Source: Acidimicrobiia bacterium | GTDB lineage: Bacteria > Acidobacteriota > Vicinamibacteria > Vicinamibacterales > CAVVIG01 | Length of the DNA stretch: 64,000 nt | Assembly: GCA_016871175.1 (NCBI GenBank) | Contig: VFZL01000008.1 | Location: 62,001-126,000 of the forward strand | Direction: 5' to 3' | The notes under the pieces: generated by a model | What the model was told of the DNA's origin: nothing | Seen by the model: only the letters and a program-made list of their open reading frames with translations | Databases searched by the model: none | Translations under genes and position numbers: made by a program | Part shown: in pieces, positions 4,367 to 17,762 of the stretch | Position numbering within the stretch: position 1 is the first letter of the stretch | Layout of the letters: each line of letters opens with the position of its first letter

Positions 4367-4657
4367 TCAGGCCGATGTCGTGGGAGGTTCGTCCTGAACC
4401 TGCACCGGCCCGCGGTCGTGCGCCTCTTCCGCCGCCGGTGCGACCGGGGACGCGAAGCGGCGTCCGACGCGCTTCAACGCGCCGAGGAGACGACGGGATG
4501 TGAGCCCGATGCCAAGAATGGCGGATAGGATGGTTTGGTAGCTGAGGCTACCGGAACCAGGATCGATATACGCCAGGGCCGGCCGCTCAAAGGCCACTAG
4601 AAGGCTCAAGACGCCGAACGCGATGGGTGTGAAGCGGCCACCAGTCGGGATCGTCAC
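4367..4657 (-). CDS. Small membrane protein with AYIDPGSGS motif
   Basis: From the GTG at 4657 the product has 96 residues. A hydrophobic leader (PIAFGVLSLLVAFERPALA) resembles a signal peptide. It is followed directly by the signature AYIDPGSGSLSYQTIL and a second hydrophobic segment (ILSAILGIGL), then a basic stretch and an acidic, proline-rich tail. Proteins of this type commonly precede sulfatase-like and methyltransferase genes in envelope polysaccharide loci (general knowledge); their biochemical role is not established. It is the first gene of the operon. An upstream ATG at 4726 is in frame but adds non-hydrophobic sequence, so the GTG is preferred. Confidence 0.65.
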   Translation of the reverse strand: MTIPTGGRFTPIAFGVLSLLVAFERPALAYIDPGSGSLSYQTILSAILGIGLTSRRLLGALKRVGRRFASPVAPAAEEAHDRGPVQVQDEPPTTSA

Positions 4658-5049
4658 ATGGAAGGACTCGAGTCTCCTCGAGCTCGTACAGGGACTCAAA
4701 CGAGCGCGCATCGATGGCGTGTGCATCGAATCGATCCTCGTGGTTCGAGACGAGAGAATTCACGGCCGCGGCCTTCGTCAGTCCCCCTTCGTCTTCGCCC
4801 TACTGCCGGGGGCGCCCACTCGGCCCAGACCGGTCACGTCCGAGGGGCCAGCGGGCGAGACGGGCCTGCAAGCGTTTCAAAGGTACCGTGTGTACCATGC
4901 AGTCTTGAGGCTTTGCCCATTATTCGCCTCCCCGTTTGGGGTAGACGAGCCTGTCAGGGTCCAGTGTCAATCACGGAACCCACCGGCGACCGTGGCGGGC
5001 TTACCCGGTCCGCCCGGCCTGCACTACGCTATCGCCGATATCCACAACC
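4658..5049. other. Intergenic region, no gene seen
   Basis: About 390 bases between the start of the YIDPGSGS operon (minus) and the recognisable start of the kinase-like pseudogene (plus). It must hold the promoters of both, but I see no convincing -35/-10 pair, operator or RNA gene. The open frames that cross it lack coding character. Confidence 0.4.
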
Positions 5050-5751
5050 GTGGTGGCGGTGTCACGCCAGTTTGGAAGCGGCGGCGCGCGTGTGGGCCGA
5101 GCCGTCGCGTAGCGACTCGGATTTCAGTACGCGGACCGCGAGATTCTGGTCGAGGCCGCTCGTCGCCTTCAGGTCACGCCCGAGGATCTCGAGCCGCTCG
5201 ACGAGCATGCTGCAGGGTTCTGGGCACGCATCGGCCTGCTCTTTGCCCAGGCGGCTCCGGACACGCCTTTCATCCCGCCGACGTGGCCATCGGTGAGCGA
5301 AGCCCATCTCTTCGACATCGAGCGGCAGGTGATTGCGAAAATCGCCGAGAAGGGCAGCGCCGTCATCGTCGGCCGCGGCGCGGCGCACATCCTGGTTGGC
5401 TATGGCGAGCGTTCTCAACGAACCGGGCAGGCAGACGGCCCTGGCAGCGTGATCCGCGTGTTCCTGCACGCGCCCGTCGATGCCCGGGTCACGCTCGCCA
5501 TGGTCGAGTACGGATTCGCCGATCGCGACGCGGCGGCGGTCGTCGTGCGGGACTCCGATCGCGCGCGCGCCAGGTTCGTCCGCAGCATCACAGGCCGCGA
5601 TTGGTGCGACGCGACGCTCTACGACCTCTGTCTCGACACGCAGGCGGCTGGCCTCGATCGCTCGGTCGACCTCATCGTGGATCTGGTGCAGCGGAGGACC
5701 GCGGCACCACTGCCACCGATGAGGCCGCTGGCGTCCAGCGAATCCTCGTGA
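5050..5751 (+). pseudogene. Cytidylate-kinase-like protein, interrupted by TAG at 5110
   Basis: In one frame the sequence reads VAVSRQFGSGGARVGRAVA, a typical P-loop of the cytidylate-kinase-like family (PF13189). It then meets TAG at 5110-5112 and continues in the same frame as RLGFQYADREILVEAARR through 'GSAVIVGRGAAHIL' and 'RVFLHAP' to the stop at 5751. The homology on both sides of the TAG is continuous, so a single nonsense change (or base error) splits the gene after its ATP-binding loop. Translation from the internal ATG at 5293 would lack the P-loop and should be inactive as a kinase. The start codon (GTG 5050 or 5053) is inferred. Members of this family are uncharacterised nucleotide-kinase relatives. 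Confidence 0.75.
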
Positions 5752-5813
5752 TCGCCTGCCCTGGCGCCTTGCCCGCGTGCCGACCAGGTCGATGGGTATA
5801 ATCAGCTCCTCCG

Positions 5814-6134
5814 ATGGCGCGCATACTCATCAACCTTCGTATCCCCTCGCTCACGCTCAAGCAGGACATCGACTCACCGCGGCGCGTCGACAACAGCATG
5901 CTCAGGTTTCTGAAGACCATCGAGGTCCCGGCCCTTCCGAAGGTCGGCGACACGCTCTCGCTGACCGCCGACGCGTTGCCGCTGCCGTTCCCTTGCACGG
6001 TCAGGCGCTCCGACTGGGACGACCGCGAGAACATGTTCGTGGTGTCGTGCGCGTACGGCAAGAGCTCTATCCCCGAGGCTGACTATCGCGCGCTCGTCGG
6101 AAGTCCCGACTGGGCGTCGAAGTCCCTGTTGTGA
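5814..6134 (+). CDS. Hypothetical protein, 106 aa
   Basis: A short, soluble, proline-containing protein beginning MARILINLRIPSLTLKQDI. It has no signal peptide, membrane segment or cysteine motif, and I do not recognise the family. The alternating hydrophobic pattern ('ILINLRIPSLTL', 'CTVRRSDWDDRENMFVVSCAYG') suggests a small beta-rich domain. It starts 62 bases after the broken kinase-like gene and ends 10 bases before the propeller gene, so it may share a transcript with one of them. Confidence 0.55.
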   Translation: MARILINLRIPSLTLKQDIDSPRRVDNSMLRFLKTIEVPALPKVGDTLSLTADALPLPFPCTVRRSDWDDRENMFVVSCAYGKSSIPEADYRALVGSPDWASKSLL

Positions 6135-9843: not shown

Positions 9844-11403
9844 ATGCCTTCGAATTGGCCCGGCACGCTCTCGAACCTACGTCGCGCGCTCGCGTCGCCA
9901 CGGACGGCGGCCGTCGCGGTGCTGTCGTTCTCGTCGGGTCTCCCGCTGGGCCTCGTCTGGATCGCGATCCCGGACTGGATGCGCGACATTGGCGTCGACA
10001 TCCGCATCGTCGGCCTCCTGTCCCTCGCGCAGGCGCCGTGGGCGTTCAAGGTGATCTGGTCCCCGCTGATGGACCGCTACGTGCCGCCGTTTTGGGGACG
10101 ACGACGCGGGTGGATGGCGATCGCACAGGTCGCGTTGCTCGGGCTGGGCTTGTTGCTCGCAGGCGTCGGCGACCGTCCCGAGACGGTGTGGGTCGTCGGC
10201 GCGATCGCGCTCGCGACCGGGTTGGCGGCCGCATCACAGGACATCGCCTACGACGCGTACGCCGTGGACGTGTTGCGCAAGGATGAGCAGGGTATTGCGG
10301 TAGGCGCCCGGACCGCGTTCTATCGGGCGGCGATGTTGCTGGCCGGGGGCATCGCGATCAGTTTGGCTGCTCGCGTGGGCTGGATGTTCGTGAACGTCTT
10401 CCTTGCGTTGTGCTACGTGCCGATGCTGCTCGTCACATGGAAGGCGCCCGAGCCCGAAGTCACGCAGTTGGCGCCCCGCACGCTACGCGACGCAGTCTGG
10501 CTGCCGTTCGTTCAGATGCTGGCCCGGCCGCGCGCACTCGAGATTCTGGCGTTCGTCGTGCTCTATAAGTTCTCCGACCAATTGACGCAGACGCTGACGC
10601 GGCCGTTCCTCAACGACATCGGCTACAGCGCCGATCAGCGCGGTTTCGCGTTGGCGACCCTTGGCGTGGTGGCCACCGTCGGCGGTGCGGTCGCGGGTGG
10701 CTGGCTCACCACCCTTGCGGGATTGGGTCACGCACTCTGGATCTTCGGGCTGCTGCAGTTGTTCTCGAACGCCGGCTACTGGCTGATCGCCTACGTGGGT
10801 GTGCCGAACCTGCCGTTGATGTACGGAGCGACGAGCTTCGAGTACCTCACATCCGGCATGGGGACCGGGGCGTTCGGGGTGCTGCTGCTCAGGCTCACGG
10901 AGAAGCGCTTCTCGGCGACGCAGTACGCGCTCTTCTCCAGCCTCTTTGCCGCTCCACGCGTGCTCGCAGGTCCTATCGCCGGCGTGGCGGTGGACAGCGT
11001 GGGATGGGCGACGTTCTATCTCGCGACCATGATCGTTGGCATTCCCGGCTTGATCATGCTCGCTCGGTTCGTGCCGCCCGGCGTGCGCGAGCCGACATTC
11101 GAGGCGCCCCAGCTCCAGGGAGGCGAGGTCGGCGACCACGTCGACACCGCGGGCTTGCTGGGCCGAGGTGTTGCCGCCACCGTTGTCACCGGCATTGCCG
11201 CCTCCCTCGTGCTCGCTTTGATGGCGGCGATTGACGCGATGCGCCGCGCGAAGACCGCTTCGCTGTCGTTCGGCCCGGCCTGGACTTCGATCTGGCAGCC
11301 GCAAGGCATCGATGGTTGGTTGCAGATCCTGTCGATTGCCGTGTTCTCCCTCGCTTGCGGCATGGGCGCGGTGGCCATGGCTGCCGCGAAACGCCGACGA
11401 TAG
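9844..11403 (+). CDS. MFS transporter, AmpG-like
   Basis: The protein has about twelve to fourteen hydrophobic segments, with the AmpG-type start 'SFSSGLPLGLVWIAIPDWMRDIG', followed by 'LAQAPWAFKVIWSPLMDRY' and 'GLAAASQDIAYDAYAVD'. AmpG family permeases import anhydromuropeptides released during cell-wall turnover into the cytoplasm. At 519 residues it is slightly long because of a C-terminal membrane extension after ~residue 410. The start is the ATG at 9844. The next gene, a sirtuin, begins one base after its stop, so the two are probably co-transcribed. Confidence 0.8.
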   Translation: MPSNWPGTLSNLRRALASPRTAAVAVLSFSSGLPLGLVWIAIPDWMRDIGVDIRIVGLLSLAQAPWAFKVIWSPLMDRYVPPFWGRRRGWMAIAQVALLGLGLLLAGVGDRPETVWVVGAIALATGLAAASQDIAYDAYAVDVLRKDEQGIAVGARTAFYRAAMLLAGGIAISLAARVGWMFVNVFLALCYVPMLLVTWKAPEPEVTQLAPRTLRDAVWLPFVQMLARPRALEILAFVVLYKFSDQLTQTLTRPFLNDIGYSADQRGFALATLGVVATVGGAVAGGWLTTLAGLGHALWIFGLLQLFSNAGYWLIAYVGVPNLPLMYGATSFEYLTSGMGTGAFGVLLLRLTEKRFSATQYALFSSLFAAPRVLAGPIAGVAVDSVGWATFYLATMIVGIPGLIMLARFVPPGVREPTFEAPQLQGGEVGDHVDTAGLLGRGVAATVVTGIAASLVLALMAAIDAMRRAKTASLSFGPAWTSIWQPQGIDGWLQILSIAVFSLACGMGAVAMAAAKRRR

Positions 11404-11404
11404 T

Positions 11405-12166
11405 GTGAAACCCAATCCCTTAACCGACCTTCGTGCCCCCGTTGATCGCCTGCGTGCCGCACGGCGTGTGACCATTCTGACCGGTGCTGGAGTGTCGGCG
11501 GCGAGTGGTGTGCCGACGTTTCGTGGCGCCGATGGCCTGTGGCGCCAGTTTCGTGCGACAGACCTGGCGACGCCCGAAGCGTTCGCCCGCGATCCGGCCC
11601 TCGTGTGGGAATGGTATCAGTGGCGACGGAGCCAGATCGCTGGGTGTCAGCCCAACGCCGCCCACGAGGTGCTCGCGCGCTGGTCCCAGCAGCCCAACTG
11701 GATCGTTGCCACGCAGAACGTGGACGACTTGCACGTGCGTGCCCGTACGCGTGACCTCATTCGGCTCCACGGGTCGATCTGGGAGCTCTCGTGCTGGGGA
11801 CGTTGCGCGCAGTCACCCAGATCGTGGCGTGACGAGCGGGTGCCCATGCCGGACCCGGTGCCCTCGTGTCCCACGTGCGGCCGGCTTGCGCGGCCGGCCG
11901 TCGTGTGGTTCGGAGAATCGCTCGATAGACGAGACATGGCGCGCGCGGCAGCCGCGACTCGGTGCGATGTCTTCATCGCCGCCGGCACATCGTCCGTGGT
12001 CTATCCTGCGGCGGGTCTGATGGGAGAGGCCAAGGCACAGGGCGCGTTCACGATCGAGATCAACCCGGAAGCGACCGCGGCGTCCGACATCGTCGATTGC
12101 GCAATCCAACAAGGTGCGGAAAACGCCTTCCCGTTGCTCGATGCACAGCTCACTGGCCGTGTCTAG
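11405..12166 (+). CDS. cobB: NAD-dependent protein deacylase (Sir2 family)
   Basis: All sirtuin signatures are visible: the NAD-binding 'GAGVSAASGVPTFRG', 'TQNVDDLH', the catalytic His in 'RLHGSIWE', four zinc cysteines (SCWGRC and CPTCG) and 'RPAVVWFGE'. The helix 'WEWYQWRR' carries the Tyr-x-x-Arg pair that marks class III sirtuins and favours succinyl/malonyl lysine. The enzyme removes acyl groups from protein lysines, using NAD+ in the cytoplasm. The start is the GTG at 11405, one base after the transporter stop. The stop shares the palindrome CTAG with the convergent hydrolase gene. Confidence 0.9.
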   Translation: MKPNPLTDLRAPVDRLRAARRVTILTGAGVSAASGVPTFRGADGLWRQFRATDLATPEAFARDPALVWEWYQWRRSQIAGCQPNAAHEVLARWSQQPNWIVATQNVDDLHVRARTRDLIRLHGSIWELSCWGRCAQSPRSWRDERVPMPDPVPSCPTCGRLARPAVVWFGESLDRRDMARAAAATRCDVFIAAGTSSVVYPAAGLMGEAKAQGAFTIEINPEATAASDIVDCAIQQGAENAFPLLDAQLTGRV

Positions 12167-15247: not shown

Positions 15248-15772
15248 CTACAACACGTTCAACGACTGCATCTCGGCGAGCTCATCTGGCGTCAGTTTGG
15301 GTAGGTGGCGAATGAAGTGGATCAACTGCCAGACGAGCGTTTCCTCTTTTGGGTCAGCCGTGCCGGTCCCGAATGCCGGCATCCCTGTGAAGCGGACGCC
15401 GTTTTCGATGATGTAGAAGAGCTCACCGTCGGTCATGTCCTGCGTGTCCGCGAGGCGCATGTCTGGCGCCTTCGGAAAGAACCCGCGCCCAAACGCCGTT
15501 CCCTTACCGCCGCCATCGTTCCCGTGGCAGAGCGCGCAGTACGCCGCGAAGTGGCGCATCCCTTTGCCGATCGCCTCCTCAGACGAGGGAACCGGGTTGG
15601 CCATCACGCGGATTTCGCCAGGAACCGCCAAGGATCGAAACCGCCGCGCGACCAGCGTCTCAAGGCGACCAGGGTCGGGTTGTGACGTGAGTCCGGTCGA
15701 CGTCACGTACACGAAGCCGCTCGCCACGATGACAATCGGACTGAGCAGCACGCCTGTGAGCAGTCGAAACAC
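15248..15772 (-). CDS. Membrane-anchored cytochrome c
   Basis: A GTG start gives an N-terminal anchor (LLTGVLLSPIVIVASGFVYV) and then a class I cytochrome c domain with haem motif CALCH and the probable axial Met in 'VRFTGMPAF'. It carries one haem in 174 residues. It should sit on the periplasmic side and pass electrons within the respiratory chain. It stands alone, divergent from the receiver-like gene, so its redox partner is not evident from context. Confidence 0.85.
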   Translation of the reverse strand: MFRLLTGVLLSPIVIVASGFVYVTSTGLTSQPDPGRLETLVARRFRSLAVPGEIRVMANPVPSSEEAIGKGMRHFAAYCALCHGNDGGGKGTAFGRGFFPKAPDMRLADTQDMTDGELFYIIENGVRFTGMPAFGTGTADPKEETLVWQLIHFIRHLPKLTPDELAEMQSLNVL

Positions 15773-15835
15773 GCGAACCTCGATTCTGCAAATGGCCTGT
15801 CGTGTAGTATAGGCTGCGTTGCTGTGGAGCCCTAG

Positions 15836-16276
15836 TTGTCCGCGAGCTTGATCCTTCTCGCCACGCCAAGCGAGGAGGAGAGCGATCGCATTTCGGTCGC
15901 ACTGGCGCCCCTAGGGGACTTCGCCTTCGTCCACGGTCGTACGCTGGACGCGGCGCTCCAAGTCGCCACCAGCCTCCAGCCAGACCTCATCATCACATCG
16001 TTGACCGGCTCGGACGGGGTCACGCTCTGTCAACGGCTGAGGCTCATTCCGGAAACCCGAGCCGTCCGCGTGCTCCTGCTCATCGAGCGCGAGCGGCTGA
16101 ACGAAGATCGGGCGGCCGGCGCCAACAGCGTCATGGTTCAGCCCACCTCGGCGATGCTCACCGCCATCGAAGCAAAGCGCACGCTCGAGCGGGAGGAACG
16201 TCGGAGCCCATGGGTTCCTGACAGGCGAGCGGTGTTTCGCGGCGGCCGGCGAATGACCGATATCGGCGTCGGTTGA
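15836..16276 (+). CDS. Degenerate response-regulator receiver protein
   Basis: The 146-residue protein from the TTG at 15836 has receiver-like order: '[15 protein letters not shown]', then '[21 protein letters not shown]', 'VRVLLLIE' and '[11 protein letters not shown]'. At the phospho-acceptor position a Ser replaces Asp (DLIITS), and the conserved Lys before Pro is Gln (VQP). It therefore probably cannot be phosphorylated in the usual way. The basic C-terminal tail includes '[11 protein letters not shown]'. It stands 67 bases ahead of the glutamate dehydrogenase gene. A pseudo-receiver acting through protein contact is inferred. Confidence 0.65.
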
Positions 16277-16343
16277 GTTGCGCGGCGCGCCGCGCCCGAC
16301 GTTTCCTCTTCCACGCCCGTTCGAGCACAATACATCTGGTCCC

Positions 16344-17762
16344 ATGTCGCAGACACAGAACGGTCTCCTCGCCAGCGTCGACTACTACTTCGATGAGGCA
16401 GCGCGATTCGTTAAGTTATCGCCTGACCTGCTGAAGCAAGTCAAAGCGGTCAACAGCGTTTACCGATTCCAGTTCCCGGTTCGCCAGCGTGACGGGAGCA
16501 TCCAGGTCATCTCCGCGTGGCGCGTGCAGCACAGTCATCATCGATTGCCCGTCAAGGGCGGCATTCGGTACAGCCCTCTGGTGGACGAGGAAGAGGTCAT
16601 GGGGCTCGCCGCCCTGATGACGTACAAATGCGCCGTGGTCGACGTCCCGTTCGGTGGCGCCAAGGGCGGCGTGCAGGTCGACCCACATGCGCTCGATATC
16701 GATCAACTCGAGCGGATCACGAGGCGTTACACCGCGGAGCTGGTCAAGAAGAACTTCATCGGACCGGGCGTCGACGTGCCGGCCCCGGACTATGGCACGG
16801 GCGAGCGCGAGATGTCCTGGATTGCTGATACCTACGCGGCGCTCAACCCGGGCCATCTCGACGCGTTCGCGTGCGTCACTGGCAAGCCCACCACACAGAA
16901 TGGAATCCACGGGCGACGTGAAGCGACGGGACGCGGGTTGTTCTTCGCGGTACGCGAGGCATGCCTGCAGACCGCGGACATGAAAGTGCTGGGCCTGGCG
17001 CCCGGTCTCGCAGACAAGCGCGTCGTCGTGCAGGGGCTCGGCAACGTCGGGTATCACGCGGCGAAGTTCTGCCGCGAGGGAGGCGCCGTCATTGTCGCCG
17101 TCGCCGAGCGAGAAGGGGCAATCTACAAGCCGAGTGGCCTGGACGAAGACGCGGTGCTTGCGCACCGGAAGGCCACCGGATCGATCCTCAATTTCCCGGG
17201 CGCCACCAACATCCCGCGATCGCTCGACGCGCTCGAGCTCGACTGCGATATTCTCATTCCGGCCGCGCTCGAGAACCAGATCACCAGCGAGAATGCGCCG
17301 CGAATCCGCGCACGGATTATCCTCGAGGGCGCAAACGGTCCGACCACGCCGGACGGAGAAGCGATTCTGCTGGAGAGGAACACGCTGATCATCCCAGACG
17401 TGTACGCCAACGCCGGTGGCGTCACCGTGTCGTACTTCGAGTGGCTGAAGAACCTGGCGCACATCAAGTTCGGCCGCCTCGAGAAACGGAACGCCCTGGC
17501 GTCTGCACGCCGGATGCTCCAGGCCGTGGAATGGGCCTCCGGCACAACCTTCACCGACGTGCAGCGGGCCGAGCTCATGCCTGAATTGGACGAGGCGACG
17601 ATCGTCAACTCAGGGCTCGAGGAAACGATGGTGAGCGCGTATCACGAGCTGCTCGCCACGAGGGACCGCGAGCCCGGCATCAGAGACTTGCGAACCGCCG
17701 CTTTTGTCAACGCGATCGAGAAGGTCGGGCAGTCGTATCTGGAGCTGGGGATCTTTCCGTAG
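16344..17762 (+). CDS. gdhA: Glu/Leu/Phe/Val dehydrogenase (glutamate dehydrogenase)
   Basis: The 472-residue enzyme shows the substrate-binding segment '[14 protein letters not shown]', the catalytic Lys region '[17 protein letters not shown]', '[21 protein letters not shown]', and a Rossmann fold with '[16 protein letters not shown]'. It interconverts glutamate and 2-oxoglutarate with NAD(P). The ATG at 16344 matches the family N-terminus. The cell also has GltBD in this window, so ammonium assimilation can run through either route. The trehalose genes follow after an intergenic palindrome. Confidence 0.9.

Follow-up and report, generated by a model that had tools for sequence, protein, structure and literature searches.

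A Single In-Frame Stop Interrupts a Cytidylate-Kinase-Like Gene

The window, that is, the whole stretch of 64,000 nucleotides that was analyzed, contains on its forward strand (frame 1, 5050-5751) a gene for a cytidylate-kinase-like protein of 233 residues, whose sole internal stop is the TAG of codon 21 (5110-5112) and which ends in a TGA at 5749-5751. The parts of this gene are listed in Table 1. A preliminary description of this DNA had reported a single TAG at 5110 after the P-loop in a gene otherwise free of damage, and translation of the frame confirms both points, with no further stop in 5113-5748. It had also pointed to an internal ATG at 5293; the codon there is GTG, while the length of 152 residues given for the reading that starts at this position is correct.

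Table 1. Coordinates of the features of the interrupted kinase-like gene in the window
Feature	Position	Strand	Evidence or remark
First 20 codons, from GTG 5050	5050-5109	+	First strand and P-loop GSGG
In-frame TAG stop, codon 21, within the helix behind the P-loop	5110-5112	+	Translation, structure model
Remainder of the kinase-like gene, 212 codons open, ending in TGA 5749-5751	5113-5751	+	
152-residue reading from an internal GTG start, lacking the P-loop	5293-5751	+	
12 codons without counterpart in aligned relatives	5395-5430	+	Low-confidence loop in the model

Base composition by codon position displays the pattern of the kinase frame from about 5050 to about 5750. A longer open frame (4623-5801) runs through the region in a different frame and is consistent with a shadow of a G+C-rich gene, given that the codon-position signal is that of the kinase gene. 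At the 5' end, reading of the sequence shows no ATG, GTG or TTG in frame between the upstream stop and 5050, and a lost start codon upstream of 5050 is a possible second lesion. In most relatives, the Met lies several residues further upstream than the window start at 5050. The in-frame residues ahead of it (5020-5052) are slightly similar to the leaders of relatives, raising the score from 26.8 to 29.6 bits. Further inside the gene, the 12 extra codons at 5395-5430 are missing from L008, the nearest relative (see below), and from the other aligned relatives.

Homology to PF13189 Is Continuous across the TAG

The read-through translation, with X at the stop, matches the Pfam family PF13189 (Cytidylate_kin2) with an E value of 5.3e-39 and a score of 134.6 bits, its residues 1-198 aligning to positions 1-175 of 176. 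The 5293-5748 piece by itself scores 77.8 bits and covers positions 74-175 of 176. Since the gathering cut-off of PF13189 in Pfam is 28 bits, both count as members of the family by score, while the whole domain is not found in one uninterrupted frame, with the TAG at 5110-5112 lying within it. Judged by its sequence, the locus would thus be a PF13189 member by descent that is broken, and not a working one. The short part ahead of the stop was assessed with a profile of our own, built from 36 relatives. With it, the read-through reaches 238.5 bits, the segment behind the stop 197.2 bits and the first 20 residues alone 26.8 bits. When these 20 residues were shuffled 200 times, the read-through scored 201.4 bits on average and 211.3 bits at most, and since this is below the unshuffled 238.5 bits, the homology ahead of the stop is not due to chance. 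The Pfam alignment and the shuffling agree with the earlier statement that homology continues on both sides of the TAG.

The part ahead of the stop encodes a P-loop-like segment of the form R-x-x-G-S/A-G-G, in which R6, G11 and G12 are common to all 36 relatives. Residue 12, a glycine in 36/36 relatives, is presumably where the Walker A lysine would stand in an alignment with CMP kinases, and this lysine seems to be missing from the whole family.

Neighboring Genes Use TAG as a Normal Stop

That TAG works as a normal stop codon in this genome is shown by other genes of the window, which end in TAG at or near the ends of their orthologues in a sister genome (G001). The gene at 15248-15910 on the reverse strand has its TAG exactly at the end of the sister orthologue, which uses TGA there (220/220 and 204/204 residues aligned), and the TAG end of 16257-17762 on the forward strand matches a TAG end in the sister (501/501 and 573/573 residues). 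In 11222-12166, also on the forward strand, TAG stands four residues past the aligned end, the last residue of the sister protein being aligned (310/314 and 315/315). In addition, a search of the assembly (96.8% complete) with Rfam detected 38 tRNAs, all of which were read by ARAGORN, and none has the anticodon CTA expected for UAG recoding of the suppressor or pyrrolysine type. Reading through or recoding the TAG would give a full-length kinase, and the homology and coding signal that go on directly past the stop are what would be expected if this occurred. However, because neighboring genes end in TAG at conserved ends and no CTA tRNA is found among the 38, we rejected this explanation as extremely unlikely.

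The Consensus Appears Generally Sound and the Break Looks Recent

In the sister genome, the order of the flanking genes is preserved (an MTase-like gene, a gene for a 106-residue protein and an NHL protein gene), but exactly 100 N stand where the kinase would be (contig C38, L081 3229-3328), which led us to reject it as a direct comparison. Because two further gaps on the same contig (19527-19626 and 47335-47434) are each exactly 100 N as well, such gaps seem to be fixed placeholders. The kinase was not found elsewhere in this genome, and the flanks of the gap carry no trace of it, their alignment scores of 61 and 31 comparing with shuffled means of 59.2 and 37.2. At the conserved gene for the 106-residue protein, a TATAAT hexamer lies 11 bases ahead of the ATG in the window (5795-5814) and 9 bases ahead of it in the sister (L081 3406-3421). 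No Shine-Dalgarno-like motif precedes the window copy, and the hexamer is possibly the gene's own promoter, with a very short leader.

The same sister contig provides a measure of consensus quality. Of its 34 gene candidates, 18 have a window match of at least 50% identity and were kept, and the other 16 were dropped. In all 18 window genes the coding body is free of stops, which makes a generally faulty consensus unlikely but would be compatible with a single wrong base; two of the alignments hold a stop, placed ahead of the apparent start.

As for the age of the break, conservation is more informative than the absence of further stops. An alignment of 23 closer relatives has 38 columns with at least 90% conservation, and the window gene keeps 36 of them. 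Its two departures are within the range of zero to nine obtained when the relatives were left out one by one. The lack of a second stop is weak evidence because, of the possible single substitutions in 5113-5748, only 2.3% would create one. As many as about 0.2 neutral substitutions per site could have accumulated without producing it (95% bound, with a 5% probability at the limit). We therefore do not treat this lack as proof of recency in a G+C-rich gene that rarely mutates to stop. The preliminary description had held that the change looks recent or is a base error, on the ground that the rest of the gene is free of damage; the absence of further stops counts for little, whereas the conserved residues do make the break look recent. 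Its proposed check, that close relatives might have Arg, Gln or Trp at the stop column, is uninformative because this column is variable. Among 41 aligned rows besides the window, one of them a gap, the 40 relatives show 11 kinds of residue (S 7, D 7, R 5, E 5, Q 3, A 3, H 3, K 3, T 2, G 1, M 1), and Trp is found in none.

An undamaged remainder and 36 of 38 conserved columns would also be expected if the TAG were a consensus or base-call error, or the base of a minority strain in a metagenome-like assembly, with the gene intact in the organism. The assembly is indeed a draft in 85 contigs. However, such errors are evidently not frequent, with 0/18 comparable window genes having a stop in the body, and the nearest relative also lacks its first half, which weakly favors a dispensable gene. 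We thus regard an error as unlikely and the TAG base as probably real.

The Gene Is Patchily Distributed and Its Nearest Relative Is Also Damaged

The PF13189-type gene is single copy in its own genome and was found in none of 26 other genomes (one of the same genus and 25 of the same family). Counting its own genome, 9 of 162 genomes of the order and 29 of 396 in an even draw from the phylum have a match, so the distribution is patchy. Plasmids yielded matches in 2 of 72,556 records, at 28-31% identity. A base-level search of genome_contigs and viral_contigs confirmed no close relatives, and a full-text literature query for the pseudogene gave no match. We also considered the gene neighborhood of intact relatives as a clue to function and rejected it, as none of the recurring neighbors in the 16 compared contexts is shared with the window. 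Neighboring genes are shared only among contexts of related genomes, such as a DEAD helicase with an HD-GAF-GGDEF gene in one genus. MFS genes occur in six of the kinase contexts and directly adjoin the kinase in two (L127 and L131).

The nearest relative, L008, comes from another family of the order (genome G046) and is about 60% identical over 91 residues. The tree joins it with the window gene at a support of 95/74, which is below the tree's strong mark. L008 consists of the last half only, which begins immediately after the stop codon that ends a ketoacyl synthase III-like gene, and is a 5'-truncated remnant. This piece, L008 1501-1803, is identical with L019 9310-9612 (reverse strand; G046 contig C78). 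Both members of this branch are therefore damaged, by different lesions. Over 86 codons, the two give pN 0.27 and pS 0.56 and, as a point estimate, a dN/dS of about 0.33, which would mean that selection held through much of their divergence.

These features could be seen as signs that the region behind the stop still yields a shorter protein, which would start at GTG 5293 and have some role other than transferring phosphate. The frame is open for 212 codons, L008 likewise lacks the first half and has an open last half, and the dN/dS estimate would point to constraint. This constraint may, however, wholly predate the breaks, and such a protein would lack the P-loop and the first strand of the fold. 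Moreover, the open piece of L008 starts some 27 residues past the place of GTG 5293, which leaves the two without a common start or domain boundary. No Shine-Dalgarno-like motif was found ahead of the internal GTG, which is a weak argument because most neighboring starts also have none. We hence consider a functional short protein very improbable. Much the same holds for the scenario in which the window gene and L008 shed the nucleotide-binding half twice, by different lesions, and the open, constrained C-terminal half is a still-functional noncatalytic fragment, to which we give very little credence.

Neither Product Is Expected to Work as a Kinase

The structure model of the read-through is a single P-loop kinase domain (mean pLDDT 81.7, pTM 0.75), with a first strand at residues 2-6 and a first helix at residues 12-23, the GSGG segment corresponding to residues 9-12. 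The stop at codon 21 falls inside this helix. Translation from GTG 5050 would end after 20 residues, comprising a strand, a loop and part of a helix, and a product made from the internal GTG would be without the nucleotide-binding loop, the first strand and the first helix. Going by the model, neither the 20-residue nor the 152-residue product should work as a kinase.

The genome encodes an ordinary CMP kinase at another locus. An intact PF02224 gene without a stop is found on contig C27 (229.4 bits) and is the only PF02224 match in the genome, the window gene failing the CMP-kinase model. The piece after the stop has no NCBIfam match, and TIGR02173 matches the relatives weakly, far below the cut-off. 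If CMP phosphorylation is the activity of the PF13189 family, the window gene is not needed for it, and with the intact CMP kinase present, its loss is plausibly tolerable.

Interpretation and Comparison with Known Systems

We conclude that this is probably an ordinary, recently broken gene, a single-copy PF13189 member inactivated by one nonsense codon at position 21; the next likeliest reading is a lone base error in the assembly. The nonsense codon would abolish the cytidylate-kinase-like protein, and the cell would tolerate the loss, its ordinary CMP kinase remaining. As in a nonsense-inactivated pseudogene, there is a premature stop in a conserved gene, and the stop codon is functional in the organism. 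Two points speak against inactivation: there is one lesion only, so that what remains has the look of a functional gene, and the comparison with the closest kin is blank, the gap in the sister genome lying exactly at the gene's place.

The finding is an ordinary one, of low novelty and with little significance outside annotation. There, as the preliminary description anticipated, the internal start could hide the lesion: a gene caller choosing GTG 5293 would predict a credible cytidylate-kinase-like protein of 152 residues, and the profile match alone (77.8 bits) would give no hint of the absent P-loop. When members of this patchily distributed family are counted in draft genomes, the P-loop half should be checked.

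How does the gene compare with known systems? The closest solved structures, both by sequence within the PDB and by fold of the read-through model, are 3hdt, a putative kinase from Clostridium symbiosum, and 3fdi, an uncharacterized protein from Eubacterium ventriosum, whose titles do not establish their function; identities in the fold alignments are in the range of 20 to 22%. Both come from intact genes, in contrast to the interrupted gene of the window. With CMP kinases (PF02224; TIGR02173), which are among the fold matches of the read-through, it shares the same broad P-loop kinase fold, but it is a different locus from the PF02224 gene of the genome. From the PF13189 family, it differs by the stop at codon 21 and the extra codons at 5395-5430, while retaining the P-loop-like GSGG, the VGRG segment and the C-terminal D-x-x-R segment.
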